Source: Rhodanobacter sp. DHG33 (GTDB lineage: Bacteria > Pseudomonadota > Gammaproteobacteria > Xanthomonadales > Rhodanobacteraceae). From it: a stretch of DNA of 64,000 nucleotides. The DNA lies in the NCBI RefSeq assembly GCF_014843005.1, contig NZ_JACYXM010000002.1, positions 186,001 through 250,000 on the forward strand. Reading direction: 5' to 3'. Under the pieces are notes generated by a model that worked only from the letters and a program-made list of their open reading frames with translations, made no database searches and was not told the DNA's origin. Numbering within the stretch: the first letter of the stretch is position 1; every line of letters begins with the position of its first letter. The translations under genes were made by a program, and so were the position numbers. Shown here in pieces: positions 119 to 60,105 of this stretch.

Positions 119-1033
119 TCAGGGCTTGCCGTCCGGCATGAACCGCACGATCACCCGCTGCCCGATCCGCAGTTGCTGCTCCGCCTGGTCGAAAGCCAGC
201 ACACATTCCACCGTGCGCGCGTTGGCGCGGGTCTGCGGATCGTTTTCCAGCGTGGCCGGGCCGTAGACCTGGCCGATGCGCAGCACGTGGGCGTTCCATT
301 TGCCGTTCTCGGCGTCGTCGTTGGCGACCACCTCGGCACGCATGCCGGGATGCACGGTGCCCACGAAGCTCTCGTTGAGCTCGGCGCGCACGATGCGCGG
401 CTTGTCCGGCAGCAGGGTGAACAGCGCATCGGCGGAGGACACGCTGGCACCGGGCTGGGCGGTCACGTGCACCACGGTGGCATCGAAGGGGGCATGCAGG
501 CTGCGTTGCGCCAGTTCGTATTTCGCTTCGGCCAGCTTCTGCGCAGCCATGTCGCTGGCGGCTTGGTCGGCGGCCTGTTCGGCGTCGAGTTGCGCACTGG
601 CTTCGTGGGCGTCATCGGCGCTCTGGCCGTCGCCGGCACCGGCGGCGGCGGCGGCGGCGAGGCGTTGCGCGCGCAGCTTGGCGGCGGCCTGCTTGACGGC
701 CAGCAGCTTGAGTTGTGCCTGTGCCTGTTCGAGTTGCGCTTGCGCGGAATCCACGGCGAGCTGGGCAGGGCGGGTATCCAGTGCGGCCAGCAACTGCCCT
801 TGCTTGACGGTATCGCCTTCGTGCACCGCCACGTTGGCGAGCACGCCTTCGCGCGGCATGTTGAGCGTGAGCAGGCCGCCTTCGATGTCGACGCGGCCAC
901 GCGCCACTGCGGCATACGGACTGGCGGCGGCGGTTGCAGCCGGCTCCGCGCTCTTCGAGCAGGCGGCGAGCGATAGCGTGGCGGCCAGCGCGCACGCGGC
1001 GAAACACGGCAAGCGAAGGGCGGTCGGCGTCAT
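119..1033 (-). CDS. HlyD/DevB-type periplasmic adaptor lipoprotein of an ABC efflux system
   Basis: This 304-residue protein is the membrane fusion subunit that would link the inner membrane ABC transporter encoded just upstream to an outer membrane channel. The N-terminus is a lipoprotein signal with a lipobox ending LAAC near residue 22. A biotinyl-lipoyl half (GVLANVAVHEGD), a long Ala/Gln-rich coiled-coil hairpin and a second lipoyl half with a beta-barrel region (LHAPFDATVV onward) follow. The ATG at 1033 overlaps the TGA of the ATPase gene (ATGA), which suggests translational coupling. It is the last gene of a -strand operon. The substrate cannot be read from sequence. Membership of the DevB/MacA superfamily is confident; which branch is less certain. 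Confidence 0.85.
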   Translation of the reverse strand: MTPTALRLPCFAACALAATLSLAACSKSAEPAATAAASPYAAVARGRVDIEGGLLTLNMPREGVLANVAVHEGDTVKQGQLLAALDTRPAQLAVDSAQAQLEQAQAQLKLLAVKQAAAKLRAQRLAAAAAAGAGDGQSADDAHEASAQLDAEQAADQAASDMAAQKLAEAKYELAQRSLHAPFDATVVHVTAQPGASVSSADALFTLLPDKPRIVRAELNESFVGTVHPGMRAEVVANDDAENGKWNAHVLRIGQVYGPATLENDPQTRANARTVECVLAFDQAEQQLRIGQRVIVRFMPDGKP

Positions 1034-1782
1034 GGCGGGGTTTCCTTGGAAGCGCTGGCGTCGGGACGCCTGTCGCTGAGAATGCGGCCATCCTCCATCG
1101 CCAGCACGCGGTCGGCGTGGGCGACCAGGCGCGGGTCGTGGCTCACGCACAGCACGGTGGTGCCGTGCGTGCGGGCGATGGTGTGCAGGATGTCGATGAT
1201 GGTTTGGCCGTTGGCGGCGTCCAGCGCGCTGGTGGGTTCGTCGGCGAACAACAGCTCCGGTTCCTTGGCCAAGGCGCGCGCGATCGCCACGCGCTGCTTC
1301 TCGCCGCCGGAGAGTTCGGAGGGCCGCAGCTTGATGCGGTGGGCCAGGCCCACTTCTTCCAGCGAGCGGCGGGCGCGGGCGCGGGCTTCCTGCTTCGACA
1401 GGCCCATGTGGTTGAGCGGCAGCTCCACTTGTTCCAGCGCGGTGAGCGCGGGGAACAGGTTGAAGCCCTGGAACACGAAGCCGGTGTGCTGCAGCCGGAA
1501 GTGCTCCAGCGCGCGCAGGTCGAGCTGGCCCAGTTCGCTGCCGAGGGCGTGCACGTGGCCGCTGTCCACCTTCTGCAGGCCGCTGAGCACGGCCAGCAGG
1601 GTGCTCTTGCCGCAGCCGGAAGGGCCGGAGATCAGGGTGAGTTCGCCCGGGTCGATGCTCAGCGACAGGCCGTTCAGCACCTGCGTGTGCAGCTTGCCGG
1701 AGGCGAAGGCCTTGCACACATGGTCGGCCCGCAGGATGGGGGCGCGCGGCGTCGCGGCAGCGGTGGGCATCGTGGCGTTCAT
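1030..1782 (-). CDS. ABC transporter ATP-binding protein (LolD/MacB/DevA type)
   Basis: This 250-residue nucleotide-binding subunit hydrolyses ATP to power the efflux complex. It shows a Walker A GPSGCGKSTLL, the signature LSGGEKQRVAIARAL, a Walker B LLFADEP followed by TSALD, and a switch histidine in VSHDPR. These are hallmarks of the MacB/LolD/DevA group, which works by mechanotransmission with FtsX-type permeases. The start chosen is the ATG at 1782, whose ATGA overlaps the permease stop; a second in-frame ATG lies four codons in. Its 3' end overlaps the adaptor gene in the same way, so permease, ATPase and adaptor are likely translated as a coupled set. Confidence 0.92.
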   Translation of the reverse strand: MNATMPTAAATPRAPILRADHVCKAFASGKLHTQVLNGLSLSIDPGELTLISGPSGCGKSTLLAVLSGLQKVDSGHVHALGSELGQLDLRALEHFRLQHTGFVFQGFNLFPALTALEQVELPLNHMGLSKQEARARARRSLEEVGLAHRIKLRPSELSGGEKQRVAIARALAKEPELLFADEPTSALDAANGQTIIDILHTIARTHGTTVLCVSHDPRLVAHADRVLAMEDGRILSDRRPDASASKETPP

Positions 1783-2909
1783 CGCAGCAGGGTCGCCGGA
1801 TCGATGCGGCGCATGCTGCGCATCGCGGCCATGCCGGACACTGCAGCCTGGCCCATCACCAGCGCGATGCACGCCAGCGCGGCGATCGGGCCGAGCGTGA
1901 CCGGCACGTCTTCGGCGCGAGCCGCGAGCAGCAGCAGCACGCCCAACACAGTGGCGCCGACAAGGCCCAGCGCACCCACCCAGAACGCTTGTTCCAGTAC
2001 CACTTTGCGCAGCGCGCCCACGCCCACGCCCAGCGCGTTGAGCGTGGCGTATTCGCGCACGGAGCCCTGCACCGCGCCCACCAGGGTCTGGCTGGTGATG
2101 ACCGCGCCGACCAGGAACACGATGCCGGCCAGGAACAGCACGCCGGCACCGGCGCCGGTATCGAACAGCCAATAGCGCACCGAGATGCGGGCGAAATCGG
2201 CGGCGCTCCACGTGGTGTAGGGGCCGAAGGCCGCACTGCCGCGCAGGCGTCGCGCTACCGCATTGGCTTGCGTCGGATCGCTCAGTTTGGCGACGAGATA
2301 GGTGGGGCCCGCGTCGTCGTCGTCGGTGTCGAGCCTGCGCGCGGTGTCCAGCGAGGCGAGCACGTTGATGCCGCCCAGCCCGCGCAGGCCGCTGCTCACG
2401 CCGACCACGCGCACGCGCCGGCCGTTGATGGTGGCGGTGCCGTCCAGCGTCACGCCCAGCTTGCCGAGATCGGCGCGATCCACGATCACCGCGTCGGGCT
2501 CGGCCAACCGCGTACGCAAGGCGGCCGGCAATACCTTAGAGAACATCAGGCCGTCGGCGGAAGTGTCGATGCCGGAGACGAACACCGACACGCCGCCGGT
2601 GTCGCCCGTGCCGCGCCAGTCGCCGTCGATCCATTCGTAGGGTTCCACGCGCGTCACCGCGGGATCCATCAGGATGCGCGACTGCACGTTGGCGTCGATG
2701 GAGCGGCCCGACCCCACGCTCTGCGTGCCGGGGTAGCCGATCCACACATCGGCGGAGGAGCCGGTGATGTAGACGCTGGTGGCGCCGAAGATGCCCAGCA
2801 CCAGCGCCAGCTGCAGCAACTGCAGCAGTCCGGCGAAGCCCACGGCGAGGATGGCGGGCAGGAAGCGCCGCCATTCGTACACCAGGGTCTTGCGCGCCAG
2901 GGCCACCAT
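1779..2909 (-). CDS. ABC transporter permease, FtsX/DevC family
   Basis: This 376-residue inner membrane protein has one N-terminal membrane segment (about residues 15-42), a large periplasmic domain of roughly 200 residues, and three C-terminal segments (about 245-275, 300-325 and 335-360). This is the four-helix topology of FtsX/MacB-type permeases. Unlike MacB, the ATPase is not fused to it. With its neighbours it matches the DevBCA arrangement of separate adaptor, permease and ATPase. The ATG at 2909 overlaps the stop of the outer membrane factor gene by one base (TGATG). Transported substrate is unknown; such systems export lipids, peptides or drugs. Confidence 0.85.
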   Translation of the reverse strand: MVALARKTLVYEWRRFLPAILAVGFAGLLQLLQLALVLGIFGATSVYITGSSADVWIGYPGTQSVGSGRSIDANVQSRILMDPAVTRVEPYEWIDGDWRGTGDTGGVSVFVSGIDTSADGLMFSKVLPAALRTRLAEPDAVIVDRADLGKLGVTLDGTATINGRRVRVVGVSSGLRGLGGINVLASLDTARRLDTDDDDAGPTYLVAKLSDPTQANAVARRLRGSAAFGPYTTWSAADFARISVRYWLFDTGAGAGVLFLAGIVFLVGAVITSQTLVGAVQGSVREYATLNALGVGVGALRKVVLEQAFWVGALGLVGATVLGVLLLLAARAEDVPVTLGPIAALACIALVMGQAAVSGMAAMRSMRRIDPATLLR

Positions 2910-4348
2910 CAGTGCGTCGCCTCAGCGGACTTGCCGGACTTTGCGCCGGGGGCTTCGTCTGCCGGCAGCGGCGCGCCGCCGAGGGCCTTGAACAAGGCCA
3001 CGTAGGCGAGGCTGTGGCTGGCACGTGCATCGGCGAGCGCGATCGCGGCCTGGGTGGTGGCCAGTTGGCCGTCGGCCAGCGCCAGCGGGCTGTCCAGTCG
3101 CAGCTTCACGCGAGTCTGCATCGAATCGTCAACGCGCTGCAGTGCCTGCCATGCCTCCAGGCTGTGCTGCTCGCGCTGCTCCTGCTGCTGCAGCGTGCCG
3201 AGCGCGGTTTCCACTTCGGCCACGCCTTGCAGCACGGCCTGCCGGTAGGCCAACACGGCGGCCTTCAGTTCGTGCGACTTGGCATGTTCGACGGCGGCGC
3301 GCATGCCCCAGTCGAACAGCGGCATGTTGAACATCGGGCCTATCGACACCAGGCCGTTGTCCACGGTGTGCTTGCGGTTGTTGTTGAGGTCGTTGGCCCA
3401 GACCATCGAAGCGTCGAGGCCAAGGCTGGGGAAGCGGTCGGCGTGGGCCAGGCCCATCTCGCCGGCAGCGCGCAGCACATCGGCTTCGGCGCGGGCGATC
3501 TCGGGGCGGGTGCGCAGCAGGTCGGCCGGCGTGCCGGGCAATTGCCAGGTTCCCAGCTGAGGCTGCGGACCGGCCTGCAGCCAGTCGGCGTCGGGGTGGT
3601 TCTGGCCGACTAGCACGGCCAGCTGCTGCGCCGCTTCGTTGATGGCTTGCCGTGGCGCGGCAAGCGCGGCCTGCGCCTCCGCGGCAGCGGCGACGGCCTG
3701 ATCCACCGTGCCGGCCGGAGCCAACTGGAGCTGCTGGCGGATCTTCAGCAGGTCGAGCTGATGGTTGCGTACATCGCCGATCTGCTGCAGCAGCACTTCC
3801 TGCTGCTGGGCGGCGCGCATCTCGATCCAATTGCGCACGACTTCGGCGACCAGCGTCACGCGTGCCGACTGCAGGTCGGCCGCGCTGGCATCCAGGTCGC
3901 CCTGTGCCTCGCGACGAGCGCCTTGGGCGCGGCCGAACAGGCCGAATTCCCAGCTGGCATCGAAACCGGCCACCAGATAGGACGCGCTGGCGTCGGGATC
4001 GATCACCTGGTCGGTGCTGGCCTTGAGGAAGGGCAGGTAGGGATCGCTGGCGTGTTGCCGCAGGGTGCGTGCTGCGCGCAGCCGTTCCGCCGCCTGTGCC
4101 ACGTCGAGGTTGTTCGCGAGCGCGCGGTCGACCAGTGCGTTCAACGCCGGATCGTCGAAGGCGCGCCACCAGCTGTGCAGGTCGGTGGGTGCGGCTGCCT
4201 GCGAAGCCATCGCATGCTGCCACTGCGCCGGGATCGGCGGCTTCAGTTTGGGCATCGACACCGAGCAGCCGGCGAGCGCGATGGCCGCCGCCAGCAGGGT
4301 GATGCGCCAATGACGGCGCGCTGCGATGTCAATCGAAATCAAGTCCAC
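2909..4348 (-). CDS. Outer membrane efflux lipoprotein, NodT/TolC family
   Basis: This 479-residue protein is the outer membrane channel of the efflux set. A lipoprotein signal ends in ALAGC (Cys about residue 28). The body holds the two repeated helical-hairpin units of the outer membrane efflux family, with typical phrases such as WWRAFDDPALNALVDRAL, the RPEIARAEADVLRAAGEMGLA region and repeated long Ala/Gln-rich helices. Length is normal for the NodT subfamily. It is the first transport gene of the operon and lies 109 bp downstream of the sensor kinase gene, so the two-component system and the pump may share a transcript. Substrate is not predictable. Confidence 0.9.
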   Translation of the reverse strand: MDLISIDIAARRHWRITLLAAAIALAGCSVSMPKLKPPIPAQWQHAMASQAAAPTDLHSWWRAFDDPALNALVDRALANNLDVAQAAERLRAARTLRQHASDPYLPFLKASTDQVIDPDASASYLVAGFDASWEFGLFGRAQGARREAQGDLDASAADLQSARVTLVAEVVRNWIEMRAAQQQEVLLQQIGDVRNHQLDLLKIRQQLQLAPAGTVDQAVAAAAEAQAALAAPRQAINEAAQQLAVLVGQNHPDADWLQAGPQPQLGTWQLPGTPADLLRTRPEIARAEADVLRAAGEMGLAHADRFPSLGLDASMVWANDLNNNRKHTVDNGLVSIGPMFNMPLFDWGMRAAVEHAKSHELKAAVLAYRQAVLQGVAEVETALGTLQQQEQREQHSLEAWQALQRVDDSMQTRVKLRLDSPLALADGQLATTQAAIALADARASHSLAYVALFKALGGAPLPADEAPGAKSGKSAEATH

Positions 4349-4457
4349 GGTCAGTCACATAACAGTGGTGGATGGAGCAACGGATAACGACCGTGCGAAT
4401 CCGCACAAGGATACAGGCCGGGTACCGGGACTGTCAGTGCGTCGTCGGCAACTCGGA

Positions 4458-5867
4458 TCACGTCGCGGTATTGCCGTGCGCCCGCGGCGCCGGGAACTGC
4501 ACCTCCACGCACAGGCCGCGTTCCTCGCCCAGCTGGTAGATCACCTCGGCATGGTGGCGCTCGGCGATGCGCTGCACGATGGCCAGCCCCAGGCCGCTGC
4601 CTTCCTCGCTGCTGCCCGGTGCCCGGAAGAAGCGTTCGCTGAGGCGCGGCAGGAACTCGGGCGGCACGCCCGGGCCGTTGTCCTCGACCGCCAGGTTGGC
4701 GCCGCCGTCGGGGCGAGCCTGCAGGCTTACCGTGACGGTGCTGCCGCGGCCGGCGTAGCGGATGCAGTTGTCGATGAGGTTGTCCAGAAGGTCATGCAGG
4801 CTCGCAGCATGACCGTGGATGCTTAGCGGTTGCTCAGGCCCCTGATAGCCGAGGTCCACGCCGGCGACCAGCGCATCGTGCACGCGCTGCATCACCGCCT
4901 CGGGCACCCAGCGTGCGAGGTCCATCGGCATGTGCTCGATGGCGTCGGTGGACGGCGCCTGCGCGCGGGTGAGCGCCAGCAGTTGCGCGGTGGTGCGTGC
5001 GGCGCGCTCGTTGAGGCGACGGATGTGGGTGAGTGCCTCGTGCACGGTAGCCGGGTCGGGGTTGGCCAGCGCGTGCTCCACATGCAGGCCGAGGCCCGTC
5101 AGCGGCGTGCGCAGCTGGTGCGCGGCGTCGGCGATGAAGCGGTCGTGCAGCGCCAGCATGCCGCGCTGCCGTGCGAACAGCGCGTCGATGGTGCGGGTGA
5201 GCGGCAGGATTTCCTGGGGCACGTCCGGGCCGCCGATAGGGGTGAGCTCATGGTTGCGCCGCGCCAGCCGCCGCGTGAGCGGATCGAGCACGCGCAGGCC
5301 GTGGTTCACGCCGAACCACACCAGCGACAGCACGCACACGATCAGCAGCGACTGGGTGAGGATGGCCAGGTAAAGAATGCTGCGCGCCTGTGCGTGGCGG
5401 TCGCTCAGGGTTTCGGCCACGGTGATGACCAGGGTGTCGCCCGGATGGCCGCTGGCCGTGGTGCTCAGCGTGACCGCGCGAAGCTGATGGCCGTCCAGGC
5501 GGATGTCGAACAATTCGGATGGCGCGCCCACGGCGGGAATCCGCGTCGCCGGCAGCAGCCGGTCGTTGCCGGCGAGGAAGCCGCGCTGGCGGCTGACGAT
5601 GCTGAAGTAGCCGTTGCCGTTGGGGTCGTACTGCAACAGGAACCGCGCCTGCGAAGTCAGCTCGCCGCCCGTTTGTTCGTTGCTCATCATTTTGGCGAGC
5701 GTCAGCGCGTCGTTGCCGAGGTCGCGGTCGTGCACGTGGTTGGAATAGCTCAGCGCCACGCCGTAGGTGAGCAGGATGTCCAGCACCAGCAGGATCGCCA
5801 CCGGAATCAGCAGGAAGCCCAGCAGGCGGCGTCGCAAGCTGGGACGGCGGGCCGGGGACGGGTTCAT
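4458..5867 (-). CDS. Two-component sensor histidine kinase (QseC/TctE type)
   Basis: This 469-residue inner membrane kinase has two membrane segments (about residues 16-37 and 164-187) bracketing a periplasmic sensor domain of about 125 residues. A HAMP-like linker follows, then the dimerisation/phosphoacceptor box with H250 (ADAAHQLRTPL), an N-box (LIDNCIRYA), a G1 box (VEDNGPGVP) and a G2 box (GSGLGLAIVQRI). It should autophosphorylate on H250 and pass the phosphate to the regulator encoded immediately upstream. The ATG at 5867 overlaps the regulator stop (ATGA), confirming pairing. Signal unknown; proximity to the efflux genes suggests that it senses an envelope-active compound. Confidence 0.9.
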   Translation of the reverse strand: MNPSPARRPSLRRRLLGFLLIPVAILLVLDILLTYGVALSYSNHVHDRDLGNDALTLAKMMSNEQTGGELTSQARFLLQYDPNGNGYFSIVSRQRGFLAGNDRLLPATRIPAVGAPSELFDIRLDGHQLRAVTLSTTASGHPGDTLVITVAETLSDRHAQARSILYLAILTQSLLIVCVLSLVWFGVNHGLRVLDPLTRRLARRNHELTPIGGPDVPQEILPLTRTIDALFARQRGMLALHDRFIADAAHQLRTPLTGLGLHVEHALANPDPATVHEALTHIRRLNERAARTTAQLLALTRAQAPSTDAIEHMPMDLARWVPEAVMQRVHDALVAGVDLGYQGPEQPLSIHGHAASLHDLLDNLIDNCIRYAGRGSTVTVSLQARPDGGANLAVEDNGPGVPPEFLPRLSERFFRAPGSSEEGSGLGLAIVQRIAERHHAEVIYQLGEERGLCVEVQFPAPRAHGNTAT

Positions 5868-6550
5868 GCGTGGCCGCCGTCGTCGGTGGTTTCTTCGAGC
5901 AGGTAGCCGAGGCCGCGGATGGTGCGCACGCCGGTGCCGCTGCCTTCGAGCTTGCGGCGCAGGCGGTGGATGGCGATGTCCAGGCCGTTGTCGGTGAGCT
6001 CCTCGTCCCAACTGCACAGCGCCTCGATCAGCTGCGCGCGGCTGGTGACGCGATCGGCGCGCGTGGCCAGCGCCTCCAGCAGGCCGAACTCGCGCGCAGT
6101 GAGTTCCAGCGGGTCGTCGTCCAGCCAGGCGCGATGGCCCGGCAGGTCCAGTCGCAGCCGGCCGATCTTCAGTTCGGGCACGCCCTGGCTGCTGCTGCGG
6201 CGGAGCAGGGCGCGCACGCGGGCCTCGAACTCGGTGAGCGCGAAGGGTTTGACGAGGTAGTCGTCGGCGCCGAGGTCGAGCACGCGGATGCGCTCGTCCA
6301 GGCCGTCGCGCGCGGTCACCACCAGCACCGGCGCGCTGCCGCCGCGGCCGCGCAGCCGGCGCAGCACTTCGCTGCCGTCCAGCTGCGGCAGGCCCAGGTC
6401 CAGCACCAGCAGGTCGTAATCGTGCTCGCGCAGCGCGGCATCGGCCAGTTGGCCGCTGGCCACGTGGTCCACGGCGTGGTTGCTGTGGCGCAACGACACG
6501 CAGATGCCTTCGGCGATGGAGGGGTCGTCTTCGGCCAGCAGGATGCGCAT
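5864..6550 (-). CDS. Two-component response regulator, OmpR/PhoB family
   Basis: This 228-residue regulator has a receiver domain with the acidic pair D8/D9, phosphoacceptor D51 (LVLDLGLP) and conserved K101 (LVKPF). A winged-helix DNA-binding domain follows (ELTAREFGLLEAL, then DIAIHRLRRKL and TIRGLGYLL). It is expected to bind promoters when phosphorylated by the kinase encoded next to it. The start is ATG at 6550, giving the standard MRILLAEDD beginning. It is the first gene of the -strand cluster, and the 151-bp gap to the divergent M1 peptidase gene must carry its promoter. The downstream efflux operon is its most likely target. Confidence 0.92.
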   Translation of the reverse strand: MRILLAEDDPSIAEGICVSLRHSNHAVDHVASGQLADAALREHDYDLLVLDLGLPQLDGSEVLRRLRGRGGSAPVLVVTARDGLDERIRVLDLGADDYLVKPFALTEFEARVRALLRRSSSQGVPELKIGRLRLDLPGHRAWLDDDPLELTAREFGLLEALATRADRVTSRAQLIEALCSWDEELTDNGLDIAIHRLRRKLEGSGTGVRTIRGLGYLLEETTDDGGHA

Positions 6551-52881: not shown

Positions 52882-54441
52882 TCATTGTTTTTGCATGCCG
52901 TGTGCATGCAAATAGTCGTGCAATCGCCGTGGATCTTGGTCTGGAGCGGCAAGCGCGACGTAGCCATCGGGGCGAATCAGGTAGAACCCATCGCGTTTGA
53001 AGCCAGCACGTTTCATGTCGGCGTTCCACGCGAATACATGGATCGAAAGCTGGTGCTCGGCACATGTCGCACCCAGGTCCGCGTGCAATGCACCGTAGAC
53101 ATGCACCTGCCACGCCAACGATTCGAGCGGGCCGAAATTGTCGTGCTGCACATTGTCCCGTGCCGCTGGGATGCGGACCCATGGCAAGCGATCGCCGCCG
53201 TGCACGGCACCGGCTTTGCCTGAACTCAGCATGCTGTGCCGATACTCGATGCCGATTTGCGACATCGTGCGGAACAGAAATCGCCGCATTGACGACCATC
53301 GGAACAACAGGGGTGCAATCACTGGAATCAGTTGCGTGCGGACAAGCCGTGCGAGCCGGCCTTCGCTGGTGGCCAGGGTAAAGCCACGATCCGTCGTGGC
53401 AACCAGTCGACGGGCAAACCTGATTCGTTCAACCTCGTAGGTGCCGAGTAGGCTCTCGGTGGCGTGATGGTTCAACACGGCGGCAAGTTTCCATGCCAGG
53501 TTCACCGCATCGCCGATGCCGGTATTCATGCCCTGGCCGCCGGCCGGACTGTGGATATGCGCGGCGTCGCCCAGCAGAAACACGCGCCCCTGCCGGAAGG
53601 ACGGTGCCACCCGGTGATGCACGCGGTAGGTCGAGAACCAGTTCACCTTCACGACCTCGAGTCCGAGATGTGCGATTGCTCGTGGACTGATGTCGTCGAA
53701 CGTCAGTTCGCCGTTTTCATCGGCGGGTTCGCGCACGGTGCCGACCAGGCGTACGCAGCCCTGTTCCTTGAGCGGGAAGACCGCGAGAAAGTCGGCGTCG
53801 TCGAGATCGATATGCAGCTCATGGTCGGTGGTCGGGCCATGGGCTTGTATGTCAGCGACGTAAAACCGCTGTGTGTAAGTTCCCCCGGGAAAGCTGAGCC
53901 CCAACCCATTCCTGACCGCCGAGCGCGCGCCGTCGCAGCCGGCAAGATAGGCCGCATGGCAGGTTGCCTCCGCGCCATCGGGCAGCCTGAGCGTGGCGCG
54001 TACGCCGTCATGCGACTGATCGAATGCGAGCAGCTCGGTCTGACGCTCCACCGTCACTCCCAGCGCCTCCAGCCGTTCGATCAGCAGTCGTTCGTGGGCG
54101 TCCTGCGGAAAGACCAGTCCGAACGGAAACGGGCTCAGGCCGTTGCCGATCTGTCCGAAAGGCACCCGTGCGGCCTTGCTGCTTCTGACCCACAGATTGA
54201 CGCCGGCAATCTGGACGCCGCGGCTGACAACCGCATCGGCCAGGTCGATCTGCCGGTAAAACTCCAGCGTGCGCGATTGCACCGCCAAGGCGCGCGAGGT
54301 GCTTCCTGCTTCGGCGGTCCTGTCGATGATCCGTACGGCAATGCCGAGCCGGGTCAGCCACAGCGCCAGCACGAGGCCGGTGGGGCCGGCGCCGGCGATC
54401 AGCACCGGGGTGTCATGGGCATCGGATCGTGCAGCTTGCAT
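52882..54441 (-). CDS. FAD-dependent aromatic-ring monooxygenase (PheA/TfdB family)
   Basis: This 519-residue flavoprotein has the dinucleotide motif LIAGAGPTGLVLALWL at about 13-28, the AGCDGARSAVR DG motif and GDAAHIHSPAGGQGMNTG, the second FAD motif. LIRPDGYVALAAPDQD near the end is typical of class A polyketide or phenol hydroxylases with a degenerate thioredoxin C-terminal domain. It would use NAD(P)H and O2 to hydroxylate an aromatic compound. The start is set at ATG 54441; a start at 54510 would place 23 atypical residues before the FAD fold. Base composition looks less GC-rich than its neighbours. It opens the block that interrupts nadD-rsfS. Confidence 0.88.
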   Translation of the reverse strand: MQAARSDAHDTPVLIAGAGPTGLVLALWLTRLGIAVRIIDRTAEAGSTSRALAVQSRTLEFYRQIDLADAVVSRGVQIAGVNLWVRSSKAARVPFGQIGNGLSPFPFGLVFPQDAHERLLIERLEALGVTVERQTELLAFDQSHDGVRATLRLPDGAEATCHAAYLAGCDGARSAVRNGLGLSFPGGTYTQRFYVADIQAHGPTTDHELHIDLDDADFLAVFPLKEQGCVRLVGTVREPADENGELTFDDISPRAIAHLGLEVVKVNWFSTYRVHHRVAPSFRQGRVFLLGDAAHIHSPAGGQGMNTGIGDAVNLAWKLAAVLNHHATESLLGTYEVERIRFARRLVATTDRGFTLATSEGRLARLVRTQLIPVIAPLLFRWSSMRRFLFRTMSQIGIEYRHSMLSSGKAGAVHGGDRLPWVRIPAARDNVQHDNFGPLESLAWQVHVYGALHADLGATCAEHQLSIHVFAWNADMKRAGFKRDGFYLIRPDGYVALAAPDQDPRRLHDYLHAHGMQKQ

Positions 54442-54551
54442 GGCGCAGGCCTGGTCGATGATCGCGAGATATCGAGCATGCCATAGCGAACCGCAGCGAG
54501 CGACCGGCACCGGGCACGCGTCTATCCGCCCAGCCGACGGCGTGCGTCAGC

Positions 54552-55169
54552 TCATGCCGCCCTCGGGATAAACCGCAGCGCCACCGAATTCATGCAATAG
54601 CGCAAACCGGTCGGCGGTGGGCCGTCATCGAATACGTGGCCCAGGTGGCTGTTGCAGCCGGCGCAGCTGACGGCAGTGCGCTCCATGCCCAGGCTGTCGT
54701 CGCGGATTTCGATCACGTTGCGCTTCGCGATGGGGCGCCAGAAGCTGGGCCAACCGGTGCCGGAGTCGAATTCGGTGGCGGCGTCGTAGAGCGCGGTGGC
54801 GCAGGCGACGCAGCGGAAGAGGCCGTGCGGTGCGGGGCGTTCGTGTTGGCCGCTGAAGGCGCGCTCGGTGCCGTCGCGACGCATGACCTCGAAGGCCAGC
54901 GGCGACAGGCGCGATTGCCACTGCGCATCGGTGAGCACCAGCCGCTGCACGTGGCAGGTGCCGAGGTCGCGGCCGTTGTCGGCGAAGCACTCCAGCAGTA
55001 CGTCGCCCGCCTCGGTATGGGCCGGCGCCGACCGATCTCCGGCGACACCGGCGGCGAACAGGCTAGGCAGGGCGAAGCTGCCGCCGACGGCGAGCAGGGT
55101 GCCGCCGCCCAGCGCGGCACGCAGGAAACGGCGGCGATCCATCGCGGTGGTTTCGTCGGTGCGGGACAT
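54552..55169 (-). CDS. msrB: Tat-exported methionine-R-sulfoxide reductase MsrB
   Basis: This 205-residue protein reduces the R epimer of methionine sulfoxide. Its N-terminus is a twin-arginine signal (MDRRRFLRAAL, hydrophobic run to about 40), so the enzyme works folded in the periplasm. The MsrB domain has zinc pairs C120/C123 and C169/C172, FDSGTGWPSFW and the catalytic C192 in RYCMNSVALRF. Start ATG 55169 has GGAGG five bases upstream; ATG 55142 starts exactly at the Tat motif. It is downstream of the dipZ gene, separated by a 123-bp repeat-bearing gap. No MsrA gene is in the window. Confidence 0.93.
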   Translation of the reverse strand: MSRTDETTAMDRRRFLRAALGGGTLLAVGGSFALPSLFAAGVAGDRSAPAHTEAGDVLLECFADNGRDLGTCHVQRLVLTDAQWQSRLSPLAFEVMRRDGTERAFSGQHERPAPHGLFRCVACATALYDAATEFDSGTGWPSFWRPIAKRNVIEIRDDSLGMERTAVSCAGCNSHLGHVFDDGPPPTGLRYCMNSVALRFIPRAA

Positions 55170-55204
55170 GACGGCCTCCGATGACGCGAATGCGGATGGA
55201 AGAT

Positions 55205-55286
55205 CCCGATAGGAGTGCACTTCGTGTGCGAATGCTCTCAGCCACGACGAGCGAAGCCATCGCGCGCGGGGTGCGCTCCTATCGGG
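55205..55286. repeat. Intergenic inverted repeat between dipZ and msrB
   Basis: CCCGATAGGAG (55205-55215) pairs with CTCCTATCGGG (55276-55286). The arms extend inward imperfectly (TGCAC with GTGCG). The centre, about 60 bp, contains CGACGAGCGAAGCC. I recall similar 'GATAGGAGTGCAC' elements as dispersed repeats in xanthomonads. Confidence 0.7.
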
Positions 55287-55292
55287 GGTGGC

Positions 55293-57017
55293 TCAGCCGA
55301 AGGTGAACGCGTAAGCGCGCACGCCGGGATCGAGGAAGGTGATGGTGAACGTGCGCTCGCCGTTGCCGTGGGCCTGCCGCACCAGCTGATACAGGCGCTG
55401 CGCGGTGACGGTGCCGTTGCCCTGCGCATCGGTGTCCATGCCGTGGTCGGCGCCGGGCGACTGGCCGTCCAGCGTGATGCGGAAACGCACCGGCCTGCCG
55501 TCCTTGCCCGGGCCGAGCACGAGGTGCAGGTCGCGGCCGCGGAAGCGGTAGGTGATGGAACCGCCCGCCGTGTCCAGCGCAGCGTCCTGCGGCTGCACGA
55601 TCCAGCGGCCGGCGAGCGCCCACTGGTTGCTGGCGAGTTGTGCAGGTGCGTGGTAGTCGAAGGCTTCGTCGTGGGCGACCTGGCCGCTGGCGAAACCTTC
55701 GGCGCGCGCATAACCCACGTAGGTTTCCGACGAGCGGTCGTCGTCGTTCGAGATCGCCGCCTCCGCGCCTTTCGCGCCGGGCTGCACGTAGCCGCCGGGC
55801 AGGTTGGCGTTGCCGGCCTCGGCCAGCAGCTGGCGGATCACGTCCTCGTCTTCGGCGTAGCCGCCTTCGCCGAAGCTGTGGTGGCGGATGCGTCCCTGCG
55901 TGTCGATGAAGTATTCCGCCGGCCAGTACTGGTTGTTGAAACCCTGCCAGATCGCGTAATCGGAATCGAGCGCCACCGGGTAGCGCACGCCCAGCCGCTG
56001 CACGGCGGCCTGCACATTGGCCTGGTCCTTCTCGAAGGCGAACTCGGGCGAATGCACGCCGATCACCACCAGGCCGTGGTCCTTGTACTTGTCGTACCAG
56101 GCTTCCACGTAGGGCAGCGAGCGCAGGCAGTTGATGCAGGAGTAGGTCCAGAAATCCACCAACACCACCTTGCCGTGCAGCGCGGCAGACGTGAGCGGCT
56201 TGCTGTTGATCCAGCCGGTGGCGCCGGAGAGCGAGGGCAGGGTGCCTTCCACCGGCAACGCCTCGCCCGGTTTCGGCGCGGGCGAAGCCTCGGCGGTGGG
56301 CATCGGCTGCACGGCATTGATCAATTTCTGTTCGAGGCCGTTGGTGCTGGCCAGCGAGACACGCGTGAGCAGGCCCGTGTCCACGCCCATCGCGATGGCG
56401 GCCACGCCGGCCAGCACCAGCGCGCCCAGCGCGCAGCGCAGCCACTGGCCCGCGCCCAGCGAACGCTTCATCAGCGCGAACACCCGGCCGCCCACGGCCA
56501 AGGCCAGCGCCAGCGAGGTGGCGGCGCCCAGCGCGTAGGTGAGCAGCAGCAGGGTGGTGGTGACGCTGGCGCCCTTGAGCGCCGCGCCGGTCAGCAGCAG
56601 GCCGAGGATGGGCCCCGCGCACGGTGCCCACAGCAAGCCGGTGGCGATGCCCAGGCCCACGGCGCCCCAGATCGACCCGTCGCCGTCGGAACGTTGCGAG
56701 AGCCGGTTGCCCAGTGCCACGAACGGCCGTGTCAGCCACTCCGCAACGTGCGCGGAAAGCAGGGTGAGCCCGAGCAGGGCCAGCACCACCAGCGCCACGG
56801 CGCGGCCGTACTGGTTCGCGTGCACCGCCCAGCCGCCGCCCACCGCGGCCAGCGTGGCGACCAGCGCGAAGGTGAGCGCCATGCCGACCAGCATCGGCAG
56901 GCCGCTTTTCAGGAACGGTCGGTCGGCGCGCGCGAACACGAACGGCAGCACCGGCAGGATGCAGGGGCTGAGGATGGTCAGCGCACCGCCGAGGTAGGCA
57001 AGGATCAGCAGGAGCAT
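55293..57017 (-). CDS. dipZ: DipZ-type thiol:disulfide reductase (CcdA + thioredoxin + C-terminal domain)
   Basis: This 574-residue membrane protein joins an N-terminal CcdA-like domain of six or more helices with redox Cys C19 (LSPCILP) and C133 (WAPCAGP), a periplasmic thioredoxin/TlpA-like domain with CINC (C294, C297), and a C-terminal domain of about 150 residues typical of DipZ. It would pass electrons from cytoplasmic thioredoxin across the membrane to periplasmic proteins. A GTAACC-N16-CGAA promoter lies 31-56 bp upstream of the ATG. Next gene downstream is exported MsrB, an obvious candidate electron acceptor. Confidence 0.92.
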   Translation of the reverse strand: MLLLILAYLGGALTILSPCILPVLPFVFARADRPFLKSGLPMLVGMALTFALVATLAAVGGGWAVHANQYGRAVALVVLALLGLTLLSAHVAEWLTRPFVALGNRLSQRSDGDGSIWGAVGLGIATGLLWAPCAGPILGLLLTGAALKGASVTTTLLLLTYALGAATSLALALAVGGRVFALMKRSLGAGQWLRCALGALVLAGVAAIAMGVDTGLLTRVSLASTNGLEQKLINAVQPMPTAEASPAPKPGEALPVEGTLPSLSGATGWINSKPLTSAALHGKVVLVDFWTYSCINCLRSLPYVEAWYDKYKDHGLVVIGVHSPEFAFEKDQANVQAAVQRLGVRYPVALDSDYAIWQGFNNQYWPAEYFIDTQGRIRHHSFGEGGYAEDEDVIRQLLAEAGNANLPGGYVQPGAKGAEAAISNDDDRSSETYVGYARAEGFASGQVAHDEAFDYHAPAQLASNQWALAGRWIVQPQDAALDTAGGSITYRFRGRDLHLVLGPGKDGRPVRFRITLDGQSPGADHGMDTDAQGNGTVTAQRLYQLVRQAHGNGERTFTITFLDPGVRAYAFTFG

Positions 57018-57047
57018 GGCGATCGTCCGGTGGGTGTGTGCTGGTGA

Positions 57048-57073
57048 TTCGCTGCCACGCCGCGGATGGTTAC
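57048..57073 (-). promoter_or_regulatory. Sigma-F-type promoter of dipZ: GTAACC-N16-CGAA
   Basis: On the - strand GTAACC (57068-57073) is followed by exactly 16 bases and CGAA (57048-57051), then about 30 bases to the dipZ ATG. The motif agrees with what I recall as the promoter recognised by sigma-F of the SigF/NrsF type in Caulobacter. The sigma gene is on the other side of the same intergenic region. Confidence 0.78.
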
Positions 57074-57087
57074 ATCACCCGCGCAAG

Positions 57088-57113
57088 GTAACCGTGATGC
57101 CGGCGGCGGCGAA
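57088..57113 (+). promoter_or_regulatory. Sigma-F-type promoter of the sigma gene: GTAACC-N16-CGAA
   Basis: GTAACC (57088-57093), 16 bases, CGAA (57110-57113) on the + strand, a divergent twin of the dipZ promoter 14 bp away. It implies autoregulation of the sigma factor. It also argues against the ATG at 57066 as start, because that codon lies upstream of the promoter. Confidence 0.78.
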
Positions 57114-57149
57114 TCGCTCCATGCAACCGCGAGGCACGGAGATCCGCAC

Positions 57150-57797
57150 TTGACCGCAGACGGCAGCTTGGTATGGGATGGCGGCCTTGTCCTGCTACCG
57201 GATGACCGCGCCCCCGTGTCTGCCGAACCCGCCAACGCCAGCGAGCCGGCCGAGCGCAAGCGCGCCGCATGGATGGCGGCCGCGCAGGCGGGCGATCGCC
57301 GGGCCTACGAGCGCGTGCTGGCCGATTCGGTGGCGCTGATCCGCGCAGTGGCGCGCCGGCAGGGCGTGGGTACGGACGCGCTGGACGACGTGGTGCAGGA
57401 GACCCTGCTCACCGTGCATCGCGTGCGCCACACCTACGATCCGGCGCGCTCCTACGATGCCTGGCTCAGCGCCATTGCCGGACGCCGCGCCATCGACGCG
57501 CTGCGCAGCCACGGCCGGCGCGACCGGCGCGAGCTGCACGACGACATCGCGCTGGACCAGCACCCCGACCGCGACGACGCGAGCATGGATGCCGAACGCC
57601 GCCAGCAGGCGCGGCGCTTGCGCGAAGCCATCGCGCAACTGCCGCCCGGCCAGCGCGAAGCGGTGGAGCAGCTCGGCCTGCGCGAGCAGTCGCTGGCCGA
57701 GGCCGCCGCGCGCACCGGCCGCAACGCCGGCGCGCTGAAAGTGAACCTGCACCGCGCCTTGAAGGCCCTGCGCGGCCGCATGCATGGAGATTCCTGA
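57150..57797 (+). CDS. ECF sigma factor of the SigF (NrsF-associated) type
   Basis: This protein has region 2 (AAWMAAAQAGDRRAYERVL, LDDVVQETLLTVHRVRHTYD, SYDAWLSAIAGRRAIDAL) and region 4 (LPPGQREAVEQLGLREQSLAEAA, GALKVNLHRALKALR). The gene for its NrsF anti-sigma follows five bases after its stop. The start is uncertain: TTG 57150 has GGAG eight bases upstream and fits the promoter at 57088-57113; GTG 57216 would give a more typical length of 193 residues; ATG 57066 lies before the promoter. It should direct polymerase to GTAACC-N16-CGAA promoters here, at dipZ and at the methionine-rich gene. Confidence 0.85.
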   Translation: MTADGSLVWDGGLVLLPDDRAPVSAEPANASEPAERKRAAWMAAAQAGDRRAYERVLADSVALIRAVARRQGVGTDALDDVVQETLLTVHRVRHTYDPARSYDAWLSAIAGRRAIDALRSHGRRDRRELHDDIALDQHPDRDDASMDAERRQQARRLREAIAQLPPGQREAVEQLGLREQSLAEAAARTGRNAGALKVNLHRALKALRGRMHGDS

Positions 57798-57802
57798 GCA
57801 TC

Positions 57803-58450
57803 ATGCCCAAGCCACGCCACCACGCTCTGATCGACGTACTCGGTGCCGAACTGGTGCCGGTGCGGCGCCTGCTGCCGCCGTGGTTGCGCACGCTGGGCTG
57901 GCTGGCGCTGGTGGCGGTCTTCGCCGCGCTGCTGTTCGTGCATTACGGCGACCGGCCCATGCTGCGCCGCTGGGCCGGTGCGCCGGATCTGGCCTGGGCT
58001 GCGCTGGGCGCGGTGCTCACCGCGATCACGGCCGCATGGGCCGCGTTCGCGCTGGCCGTGCCTGGGCGCGCCAGCCTGTGGGCGTGGCTGCCGTTGCCGC
58101 CCGCGCTGCTGTGGATTGGCGCCAGCGGACTCGGTTGCCTGCGCACTTGGCTGGCGCCGGATACCAGCATCGCCACGCTGCACCAGTCGGCCGATTGCCT
58201 GGTCTTCATCATCAGTTTCTCGATCCCGCTGTCGGTGTTGCTGGTTTGGCTGCTGCGCCGCGCCTGCCCGCTGCGCCCGGTGCTCACCGCATTGCTGGTC
58301 GGCCTGGCCAGCGCCGCCGCCTCGGCCTGCCTGCTGGAGATCTGCCACTCCTACGACGCAGCCGCCACCGACCTGCTCACGCATGCGCTGGCAGTGCTCA
58401 TCGTGGTGGTGGCGAATGCGGCGATGGGCGGGCGGCTGCTGTCGAGGTAA
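57803..58450 (+). CDS. nrsF: NrsF (DUF1109) family membrane anti-sigma factor
   Basis: This 215-residue protein has six predicted membrane helices and the NrsF/DUF1109 layout: a cytoplasmic start (IDVLGAELVPVRRLLPPW), helices from about 31, and a final helix ending GGRLLSR. It holds the sigma factor inactive until stress. Five Cys are present (C112, C132, C155, C176, C181); C132 and C181 fall close to the two Cys reported as needed for sensing in the Caulobacter protein (C131 and C181, from memory). Stop TAA overlaps the GTAACC element of the next promoter. Confidence 0.9.
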   Translation: MPKPRHHALIDVLGAELVPVRRLLPPWLRTLGWLALVAVFAALLFVHYGDRPMLRRWAGAPDLAWAALGAVLTAITAAWAAFALAVPGRASLWAWLPLPPALLWIGASGLGCLRTWLAPDTSIATLHQSADCLVFIISFSIPLSVLLVWLLRRACPLRPVLTALLVGLASAAASACLLEICHSYDAAATDLLTHALAVLIVVVANAAMGGRLLSR

Positions 58451-58472
58451 CCGCCCGCATCTGTGCGGCGAA
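58447..58472 (+). promoter_or_regulatory. Sigma-F-type promoter of the methionine-rich gene: GTAACC-N16-CGAA
   Basis: GTAACC (58447-58452), 16 bases, CGAA (58469-58472). The first element includes the nrsF stop codon. It lies 59 bp upstream of the methionine-rich protein start. It is the third exact copy of the pattern within 1.5 kb. Confidence 0.78.
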
Positions 58473-58530
58473 GGAAAGGGTGGAGGCGGTACGGCCGCTT
58501 CCTTCCCTTTGCCCACCCAAGGACACACCC

Positions 58531-58818
58531 ATGAACGCACGCACGCTTGCCGTTCTCGCGCTTTCCGCTTCCATCGGCGCTTTCGCCTTCGCTCCCGTCC
58601 ACGCGCAGGATGCGATGGCCGCTTCGTCCAGCAGCGCCATGCCGCACAAGGCCATGCAGCCCATGGATTCCATGCACAAGGACGGCGCGGCGATGAAGCC
58701 GGGCGCGATGAAAATGAAGAAAGGCGACGCGATGAAGATGAAGAAAGACGATGCGATGAAGATGAAGAAAGACGATGCGATGAAGAGCGATGCGGGCGGC
58801 GCGATGAGTGGCGGCTGA
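58531..58818 (+). CDS. Exported methionine-rich MXKDX repeat protein
   Basis: This 95-residue protein has a signal peptide (about 1-25, ending APVHA) and a 70-residue mature part that contains 14 Met, many Lys and Asp, one or two His, and no Cys, Trp or Tyr. The core repeats AMKMKKDD three times, encoded by 24-bp tandem repeats at 58705-58776. It belongs to the small MXKDX repeat family; the comparable MrpX peptide of Azospira scavenges hypochlorite by methionine oxidation. AAGGA precedes ATG 58531 by seven bases, and a SigF-type promoter lies upstream. Metal binding (Cu(I), Ag(I)) is an alternative role. Confidence 0.88.
   Translation: MNARTLAVLALSASIGAFAFAPVHAQDAMAASSSSAMPHKAMQPMDSMHKDGAAMKPGAMKMKKGDAMKMKKDDAMKMKKDDAMKSDAGGAMSGG
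58705..58776 (+). repeat. Three 24-bp in-frame tandem repeats
   Basis: Three units begin GCGATGAA at 58705, 58729 and 58753. Units 2 and 3 are identical; unit 1 differs in two codons (AAA for AAG, and GGC-GAC for GAC-GAT). Each codes AMKMKK plus two acidic or Gly residues. Such repeats can change copy number by slippage. Confidence 0.9.
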
Positions 58819-59019: not shown

Positions 59020-60105
59020 ATGGCCTCCTTCGTACAGCAGATCGGCATCGAGCATCCCCTGATCCAGGCGCCGATGGCCGGCGCCAGCACGCCGGAGCTG
59101 GCCGCTGCGGTGTCGATCGCCGGCGGCCTGGGATCGCTGGGCGTGGGCTATGCCGAACCGCAGGCCATCCTCGATCAGGCTGCGCGCGTCCGGGCGCTGA
59201 CGGATCGCCCGTTCGCGCTCAACCTGTTCGTGTTGCCCGACGATGTCGAACCGGACATGGCGGCCGTGGAGCGCGCCCGCCAACGGCTCGATGCGCTGAT
59301 GGAGCGCGAGGGGCTGGACGTGCGCACCACCTTGCCGGTGCGCTGGGCGCCGCGCTTCTCCGACCAGTTCGCCGCACTGTGCGAAGCCCGGCCGGCGGTG
59401 GCCAGCTTCGCCTTCGACCTGCCGACGCAGGCACAGATGCAGGAACTGAAGCGCCGCGAGATCTACGTGATCGGCACCGCCACCACGGCAGCGGAGGCGC
59501 GCGCCTGGGCCGAGCGCGGCGCCGACGCGGTATGCGTGCAGGGTGCCGAGGCGGGCGGTCATCGCGGCGGGTTTTTACATGCGGGCGAGACACCGCTGAT
59601 CGGCCTGTTCGCGCTGATACCGCTGGCGGTGCATGCCGTCGCGGACTGCGGCAGGGACGTGCCGGTGATTGCCGCCGGCGGCATCATGGATGGCGCCGGC
59701 ATGCTTGCCGCCGAAGCGCTCGGCGCGGCGGCCAGCCAGCTCGGCACGGCCTTTCTCGCCTGTCCGGAATCCGCCGCGGCGGAAGCGTGGAAGCGCGACC
59801 TGGCAACCGCGGAAGACCACCGCGTCGCCACCATCCGCAGCTTCTCCGGCCGCGACGCGCGCGGGCTGCGCAACCGCTACGTGGAGGCGATGGAGGGCAT
59901 GGCAGGCGAGCTGCCGGCCTATCCCGTGCTCAACGCGCTCACCGCGCCTCTGCGCCGCGCGGCGGCGGCAGCCGGTCGCGCCGACCTGGTTTCCGAGTGG
60001 TGCGGCCAGGCCGCCGCGCGGGTGCGCCCGCAGCCTGCCACCGAACTGATGGCGCGGCTGATGCACGAATACCGACTGGCGCGGCGGGCGTTGGCGCCGC
60101 ATTGA
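59020..60105 (+). CDS. Nitronate monooxygenase (2-nitropropane dioxygenase family)
   Basis: This 361-residue FMN-dependent TIM-barrel enzyme oxidises alkyl nitronates, toxic forms of nitroalkanes such as propionate-3-nitronate. PLIQAPMAGASTPELAAAVS is the family start, GAEAGGHRGGF the catalytic/FMN loop with the class I type His, and PVIAAGGIMDGAGMLAAEALGA the phosphate-binding strand-helix. There is no signal peptide. It stands between the methionine-rich gene (201 bp upstream, no gene in the gap) and rsfS, and no SigF-type promoter precedes it, so it may not be in that regulon. Confidence 0.92.
   Translation: MASFVQQIGIEHPLIQAPMAGASTPELAAAVSIAGGLGSLGVGYAEPQAILDQAARVRALTDRPFALNLFVLPDDVEPDMAAVERARQRLDALMEREGLDVRTTLPVRWAPRFSDQFAALCEARPAVASFAFDLPTQAQMQELKRREIYVIGTATTAAEARAWAERGADAVCVQGAEAGGHRGGFLHAGETPLIGLFALIPLAVHAVADCGRDVPVIAAGGIMDGAGMLAAEALGAAASQLGTAFLACPESAAAEAWKRDLATAEDHRVATIRSFSGRDARGLRNRYVEAMEGMAGELPAYPVLNALTAPLRRAAAAAGRADLVSEWCGQAAARVRPQPATELMARLMHEYRLARRALAPH

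Follow-up and report, generated by a model that had tools for sequence, protein, structure and literature searches.

A SigF/NrsF locus of Rhodanobacter joining DipZ to an exported MsrB: a candidate thiol route for methionine repair in the envelope

How might oxidized methionine be repaired in the envelope of a bacterium that has a SigF/NrsF system and a methionine-rich exported peptide, but no MsrP? The question is raised by five genes at positions 54552-58818 of a 64,000-nucleotide stretch of DNA from Rhodanobacter sp. DHG33 (called the window for simplicity), which belongs to contig 22 in an assembly of 3.76 Mb (99.99% complete). A sequence-only reading of the window had recognized a sigma factor, the anti-sigma factor NrsF, a methionine-rich peptide, an exported MsrB and the reductase DipZ, and had proposed that DipZ hands electrons to MsrB, which restores the peptide. 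All five genes lie where they had been placed (Table 1), and Pfam or NCBIfam families were found for all but the peptide. The sequence evidence shows a genuine, well-ordered locus that is conserved in relatives, and we regard it as a variant of the SigF/NrsF regulon already known for methionine repair. We consider it likely that this regulon, of the ECF16 group of extracytoplasmic function (ECF) sigma factors, deals with methionine oxidation in the envelope and that a thiol route takes the place of MsrP/MsrQ in it.

The sigma factor has sigma-70 regions 2 and 4 and was assigned to the SigF/ECF16 type from its promoter and its NrsF partner. NrsF (DUF1109) adjoins the sigma gene, scores 78.2 bits with PF06532 against a cut-off of 26.8 and, in a PF06532 search of the source genome, is a single copy; the regulatory pair is thus of the same family as the known SigF/NrsF, as had been proposed. 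Three cysteines of NrsF (C112, C132 and C181) are kept in all 17 aligned proteins, and two of them, C132 and C181, may correspond to the sensor pair C131/C181 of the Caulobacter protein, which stood outside the alignment.

The motif GTAACC-N16-CGAA occurs exactly three times in the window, upstream of dipZ-msrB, of sigma-nrsF and of the peptide gene, compared with 0.07 sites expected from shuffled sequence for spacers of 15-17 nucleotides. The Caulobacter SigF site is the identical motif (PMC3511200), the ECF16 motif of Bradyrhizobium japonicum EcfF is given likewise (PMC3420878), and in Brucella the promoters of bcrX and bcrS fit it as well (PMC8315932). Two further exact sites are found outside the window in the source genome. 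The first is located 32 nucleotides upstream of an MsrA gene (PMSR, 1.2e-55) whose product has an export leader that looks lipobox-like by eye, and the second upstream of a catalase-family gene (PF00199, 1.8e-30) whose product starts, by eye, with a hydrophobic N-terminus. The motif count alone was rejected as proof, since a reversed-pattern control matched six times in the source genome and the real pattern five times; therefore the conservation of the sites was examined.

At least one exact site was found in 40 of 41 genomes (own and 40 relatives). Among 20 candidate sigma loci, L039-L054 were orthologous and L055-L058 were not. The sites examined were those of the 16 orthologous loci, 29 single sites and locus L161, chosen by eye among the sites listed, and the scoring set (n = 74) comprised the sites of the window, the two distant sites, the 16 loci and the 29 single sites. 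A homologue of a regulon gene follows in 60 of the 74 cases; four of the remaining 14 sites are upstream of methionine-rich peptides and ten have no assigned gene. Distances were counted up to the position that corresponds to residue 1 of the source protein (of the protein in L074 for trxB). They are 30-35 nucleotides for dipZ in all 15 loci with an assigned site, 35-45 for the sigma gene in 14 of 15 (18 in the other), 51-61 for the peptide gene in the eight assigned by search, 20-43 for msrA in 12 of 13 (114 in the other), 25-150 for catalase-like genes (n = 6) and 35 for msrB itself (n = 1). In two relatives the site lies 39 nucleotides before a thioredoxin reductase gene, trxB (L065 and L074, the latter named by TIGR01292), which fits the need for thioredoxin electrons. 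From these sequences we conclude that dipZ-msrB, sigma-nrsF, the peptide gene and the distant msrA are under common promoters, so that methionine sulfoxide reductases and a trans-membrane thiol carrier appear to be controlled together, as in the EcfF/OsrA system. SigF-type sites were also seen, by eye, upstream of an AhpD-like protein (L064, G005) and a glutathione-S-transferase-like protein (L060, G001), which may be additional regulon members or chance matches.

DipZ comprises a CcdA-like membrane domain, a CXXC thioredoxin domain and a C-terminal domain, with Pfam matches to DsbD_TM (8.9e-6; 25.6 bits, slightly below the cut-off of 27.1), Redoxin (9.2e-12) and Thioredoxin_10 (3.7e-48). Its relatives of known structure are DipZ (PDB 2hyx, 5cyy) and CcdA (5vkv), and its thioredoxin domain resembles that of an msrA/msrB fusion (2h30, 2fy6, 2jzr), which we take to be PilB. 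In an alignment of 32 DipZ proteins (own and 31 of 80 DipZ loci, chosen by eye), C19/C133 of the membrane domain and C294/C297 of the thioredoxin domain are cysteine throughout and C195 is not conserved, which bears out the complete electron path that had been described. The neighbourhood of dipZ was surveyed in the best 80 of 583 confirmed DipZ loci, among them alpha-, beta- and gammaproteobacteria: msrB or msrA adjoins in 61, both in 27 and neither in 19. A custom-built profile placed NrsF next to DipZ at 20 of these 80 loci, every one of them in Rhodanobacteraceae.

MsrP, noted as absent from the window, is missing from the entire 3.76 Mb genome as well: PF00174, the family of the molybdenum enzyme of the Azospira-type system, gave 0 matches at E<=0.001 (no separate search for MsrQ was made). 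Among the 17 family genomes with the locus, 14 have no PF00174 match and two have weak ones (8.7e-12; 1.2e-5 with a stop). Strong matches are confined to G017, which alone among the 17 has no PF17991 (DipZ) protein; at its locus L161, genes for a b561-like and a YedY-like protein follow a SigF site.

The family survey was extended to 233 Rhodanobacteraceae genomes. Full-length DipZ, defined as an open frame of at least 493 amino acids with a strong PF17991 match (one further strong match, of 540 amino acids, was off the list, but its genome, G484, is counted anyway), is present in 111. The lower-scoring clade of NrsF, to which the source NrsF belongs, is present in 117, of which 100 have DipZ no more than 6 kb from NrsF. 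MsrP, a class set by profile range (a G538 protein in the right range with a 241-amino-acid frame was excluded), was found in 43 genomes, all of which match NF003767 at E<=1e-60. It overlaps with full-length DipZ in none of the 233 genomes and with the lower-scoring NrsF clade in none (Fisher 1.6e-14, without correction for ancestry), and no MsrP genome was among the 148 with any PF17991 match when the lists were read by eye. A YedY-like protein of a shorter type was counted in 55 genomes. The 13 such loci examined all have a b561-like gene alongside; 11 of them show an exact SigF site upstream, one shows a near match and one shows no site. A strict exchange of dipZ for the b561/YedY-like pair, an idea that came from G017, was rejected family-wide, as 18 of the 100 genomes that have DipZ beside NrsF contain the short YedY-like type too. 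A looser association holds, this type being present in 12 of the 17 NrsF genomes that lack DipZ in the 6-kb neighbourhood, against those 18 of 100 (P 2.9e-5, without correction for phylogeny, and several of these 17 being fragmentary assemblies). The survey thus indicates that in this family the SigF regulon can be equipped with a thiol arm, with a YedY-like/b561 arm or with the two together, and by its sequence the source genome has the thiol arm only. Two genomes, G505 (C15) and G510 (C1), contain, besides the DipZ-type NrsF, a group of three NrsF copies with high scores that lie within some 7 kb of each other on a single contig.

MsrB begins with a twin-arginine leader (MDRRRFLRAA), and the arginine pair recurs in all 17 aligned MsrBs, own included, in agreement with the proposed export. 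The catalytic cysteine and the zinc CxxC pairs of the MsrB (SelR) family are likewise present in 17 of 17; going by the roles usual in the family, these are presumably C192 and C120/C123/C169/C172. At the usual position of the resolving cysteine all 17 have threonine (SGTGWP) and are thus not of the 2-Cys type. The same threonine is found in 58 of 58 DipZ-adjacent MsrBs (some genomes are common to the two sets), and 30 of 30 DipZ-adjacent MsrAs have no cysteine beyond the catalytic one. An MsrB and an MsrA encoded on contig 42 of the source genome have the usual extra cysteines. These patterns suggest that the MsrA and MsrB beside DipZ are of the 1-Cys type and, with the usual resolving cysteine missing from both, that their catalytic sulfenic acids are probably reduced by C294/C297 of DipZ without an intermediate. 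MsrB reduces R-sulfoxides only, and its partner MsrA is encoded elsewhere under the same promoter; the idea of MsrB as the lone repair enzyme is therefore given up. What stands of the proposed DipZ-MsrB arm in place of MsrP are the common promoters, the complete DipZ, the missing MsrP and the mutual exclusion of DipZ and MsrP in the family, and what it lacked is MsrA. Two NrsF loci, L128 (G392) and L167 (G102), have msrA/msrB and no DipZ match in the stretch examined, with leader-like starts in L128, and represent one more variant.

The mature peptide (70 amino acids, if the predicted cleavage site is correct) contains 14 methionines and no cysteine, aromatic residue or I/L/V, which amounts to 20% Met, 19% Lys, 13% Asp and 3% His. 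Neither Pfam nor NCBIfam gives a match for it at E<=0.01, and its MXKDX resemblance rests on composition and context. With its leader and its own SigF-type promoter it has the features of the Azospira-type exported peptide as far as sequence goes. In 13 peptides analysed (five further or weaker ones were set aside), methionine makes up 13-22% of the mature part, which lacks cysteine and has at most one aromatic residue (none in 12) and at most two I/L/V. Methionine-rich open reading frames (at least 8 Met and more than 9% Met) were looked for within 1.6 kb after nrsF in 34 core loci. A peptide with an exact site was found in 14, namely 12 of the 17 made up of our own locus and L039-L054 and two of the 17 named loci; three further loci have a weaker candidate, and 17 have none in that stretch. 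The peptide is, on this sequence evidence, a repeated but optional partner of the core.

The alternatives differ in the protein that supplies the electrons. MsrB and MsrA might recycle themselves, with C61/C72 of MsrB as a resolving pair, or draw on another periplasmic thioredoxin, so that DipZ would be one donor of several. C61 is present in 14 and C72 in 13 of the 17 aligned MsrBs, 11 of 21 Rhodanobacteraceae MsrBs (named loci) have one or two cysteines in the N-terminal stretch, and human MsrB3 requires extra resolving cysteines (PMC6488974). Between the leader and the first zinc pair, however, 10 of the 21 Rhodanobacteraceae and all 37 other DipZ-adjacent MsrBs are free of cysteine, and the MsrAs without a second cysteine argue in the same direction. 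A universal C61/C72 resolving pair was accordingly rejected, these residues being absent from three and four of the 17, respectively, with no cysteine in that region in 47 of the 58. The pair is retained as an alternative to direct reduction by DipZ in part of the family; as a general account we hold self-recycling or another donor to be unlikely. It is also conceivable that DipZ is a general periplasmic thiol reductase and msrB its neighbour by chance. Relatives among DsbD/CcdA act in disulfide reduction or cytochrome c maturation, and the 19 DipZ loci without an adjoining msrA or msrB would agree with such a role. The 61 loci that have one across three proteobacterial classes, the single SigF promoter common to dipZ and msrB and the 1-Cys type of the adjacent reductases make it improbable.

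A further question is what is repaired, and upon which stress. The peptide could be the main substrate, a dedicated oxidant sink restored by MsrB and DipZ as in Azospira. Its conserved promoter, its recurrence with an exact site and its composition speak for this, as does a locus from another family of the class, L148 (G401, 333-4997), in which peptide, msrB, dipZ and msrA form a row opposite sigma-nrsF. On the other side, half of the core loci have no such open reading frame beside nrsF and three have only a weak one, and in Burkholderia, Pseudomonas and others, msrB/msrA commonly adjoin dipZ where no NrsF is nearby. The earlier claim that the peptide is the repaired substrate is thus not upheld as it stood: repair probably concerns envelope proteins in general, and we consider the dedicated sink somewhat doubtful. 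Alternatively, SigF/NrsF may sense Cr, Cd, Cu or Ag, the peptide may bind soft metals and DipZ and MsrB may mend secondary damage. In Caulobacter, dichromate and cadmium elicit a SigF/NrsF response that involves two NrsF cysteines (PMC3511200), and in G024 SigF-type sites stand upstream of small Cys-containing open reading frames and a DUF692-like protein, beside a higher-scoring NrsF. The peptide, however, has no cysteine and little histidine, and inspection by eye showed no DUF692- or DoxX-like open reading frame downstream of any of the five exact sites (neither family was searched for). Hypochlorous acid induces the matching Brucella system (PMC8315932), and H2O2 that of Bradyrhizobium (PMC3420878). 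A metal-stress regulon therefore seems a remote prospect here. Within the same family, locus L055 of G024 (2590-5884) has SigF-type sites before two small Cys-containing leader open reading frames, one of them followed by the DUF692-like protein, and resembles a bufferin-like metal regulon.

Besides the C61/C72 cysteines and the Caulobacter metal response, several observations weigh against the DipZ-centred thiol route. In G017, msrB and msrA are under SigF sites in a genome without DipZ, and such reductases can thus use another donor. The MsrB on contig 39 of the source genome also has serine in place of cysteine at the usual resolving position. Summed over the 17 genomes that contain the locus, the motif gives 114 sites and its control 72; the corresponding figures are 138 and 103 for 25 family genomes and 50 and 117 outside the family; many single sites must therefore be chance, and the two distant sites of the source genome rest on comparison. 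The exclusion of DipZ and MsrP ignores shared ancestry, and the YedY-like/b561 pair, also under SigF sites, is not exclusive with DipZ (21 of 55, P 0.12).

The thiol route that we favour would work as follows. NrsF would hold the sigma factor at the membrane until an oxidant, probably reactive chlorine species or peroxide, hits the conserved cysteines and releases it. SigF would then transcribe sigma-nrsF, dipZ-msrB and the peptide gene and, elsewhere in the genome, the genes of the exported MsrA and of the apparently membrane-anchored catalase-family protein. The peptide may serve as a cheap sacrificial pool of methionine, and MsrB (R-sulfoxide) and MsrA (S-sulfoxide), both devoid of the usual resolving cysteine, would repair it together with other envelope proteins. 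Electrons are predicted to pass from NADPH through TrxB and thioredoxin to C19/C133 and then C294/C297 of DipZ, and on to the catalytic sulfenic acid of the reductases, filling the role that quinone-driven MsrP/MsrQ have in related bacteria. More tentatively, and on balance somewhat less likely than not, DipZ may be a dedicated donor that directly reduces a 1-Cys Tat-exported MsrB and a lipoprotein-like MsrA and so recharges the peptide. This would be a self-contained NADPH-driven cycle replacing MsrPQ under one sigma factor, which in some relatives would also raise thioredoxin reductase, with lineages choosing DipZ or MsrP.

Table 1. Features of the locus, with positions in the window.
Feature	Positions	Strand	Remarks
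msrB	54552-55169	-	SelR 4.9e-44 (Pfam); TIGR00357 3.4e-48; 205 amino acids
Inverted repeat (CCCGATAGGAG...CTCCTATCGGG)	55205-55286		between dipZ and msrB; fold of 55170-55292
dipZ	55293-57017	-	574 amino acids; CcdA-like membrane domain, periplasmic thioredoxin domain, C-terminal domain
SigF-type promoter GTAACC-N16-CGAA of dipZ-msrB	57048-57073	-	30 nucleotides upstream of the dipZ ATG
SigF-type promoter GTAACC-N16-CGAA of sigma-nrsF	57088-57113	+	exact motif match
ECF sigma factor	57150-57797	+	215 amino acids from TTG (probable start); Sigma70_r2, Sigma70_r4_2
nrsF, membrane anti-sigma factor	57803-58450	+	215 amino acids; PF06532 1e-21
SigF-type promoter GTAACC-N16-CGAA of the peptide gene	58447-58472	+	overlaps the nrsF stop codon
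Methionine-rich (MXKDX-like) peptide with leader	58531-58818	+	95 amino acids

The inverted repeat lies within the presumed operon; it is possibly an element or insertion like the repetitive extragenic palindromes, or an attenuator, and could lower msrB expression. A strong hairpin is predicted for the gap between the two genes (-54.6 kcal/mol for 55170-55292, a value without shuffle control). The locus is flanked by an FAD-dependent hydroxylase-like gene (52882-54510, minus strand) and a nitronate-monooxygenase-like gene (59020-60105, plus strand), and the window scan gave no SigF site upstream of either.

If the thiol route holds, a single stress regulon would drive repair by either of two chemistries, quinol/molybdenum or NADPH/thiol, and full-length DipZ or MsrP, never both among the 233 genomes of one family, would offer a testable evolutionary contrast. 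It predicts that DipZ-linked MsrA and MsrB need no resolving cysteine, DipZ taking that role, and would give a concrete job to the DipZ proteins outside mycobacteria, in our judgement little studied. The L148 row is a good experimental model in another family of the class.

The sequence-only reading had taken the combination to be undescribed. This stands for the union of DipZ with SigF/NrsF and the peptide: no literature uniting DipZ with MsrB, or with SigF/NrsF and a methionine-rich peptide, was found in a coverage that mostly leaves out subscription papers. The concept itself is partly in print, as ECF16 regulons with methionine sulfoxide reductases are already known (PMC3420878) and msrA/msrB with predicted export have been reported (PMC4623255). 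Closest is EcfF/OsrA of B. japonicum, where an ECF16 sigma factor and its anti-sigma factor control, as predicted here, methionine sulfoxide reductases and a thiol carrier; its regulon includes three such reductases, Bll1026 (thioredoxin) and Bll1027 (DsbD core), and its authors propose the same relay (PMC3420878). Thioredoxin and membrane part are separate there and the genes scattered, whereas here a fused DipZ stands in line with msrB beside sigma-nrsF and the peptide; "methionine-rich" is absent from the main text of that paper. In P. militaris MP and D. hydrogenophilus LT-1, the perchlorate islands encode MsrA and MsrB with predicted export and count sigF/nrsF and mrpX among their stress genes; the main text describing them contains neither "DipZ" nor "thiol" (PMC4623255). 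In the Haemophilus MsrAB-Trxe-CcdA operon (PMC9404787) and the pneumococcal CcdA-Etrx-SpMsrAB2 system (PMC3914529), CcdA and a thioredoxin-fold protein pass cytosolic electrons to an exported reductase, which is however a fused MsrAB, forms an intramolecular disulfide in the pneumococcal case and is described, in the portions available, with no mention of SigF/NrsF or a methionine-rich peptide. Brucella BcrS/AbcS/BcrXQP shares the promoter, an MXKDX-type peptide, the peptide promoter opposite the sigma promoter and the response to hypochlorous acid, and differs in its repair arm, MsrQP (PMC8315932). In Azospira suillum, SigF/NrsF/MrpX/YedY1Z1 employs the reductase YedY with quinone-pool electrons delivered through YedZ (PMC4623255, PMC5748585), whereas the Rhodanobacter locus has thiol-type MsrB/MsrA and DipZ in a genome with no PF00174 protein.

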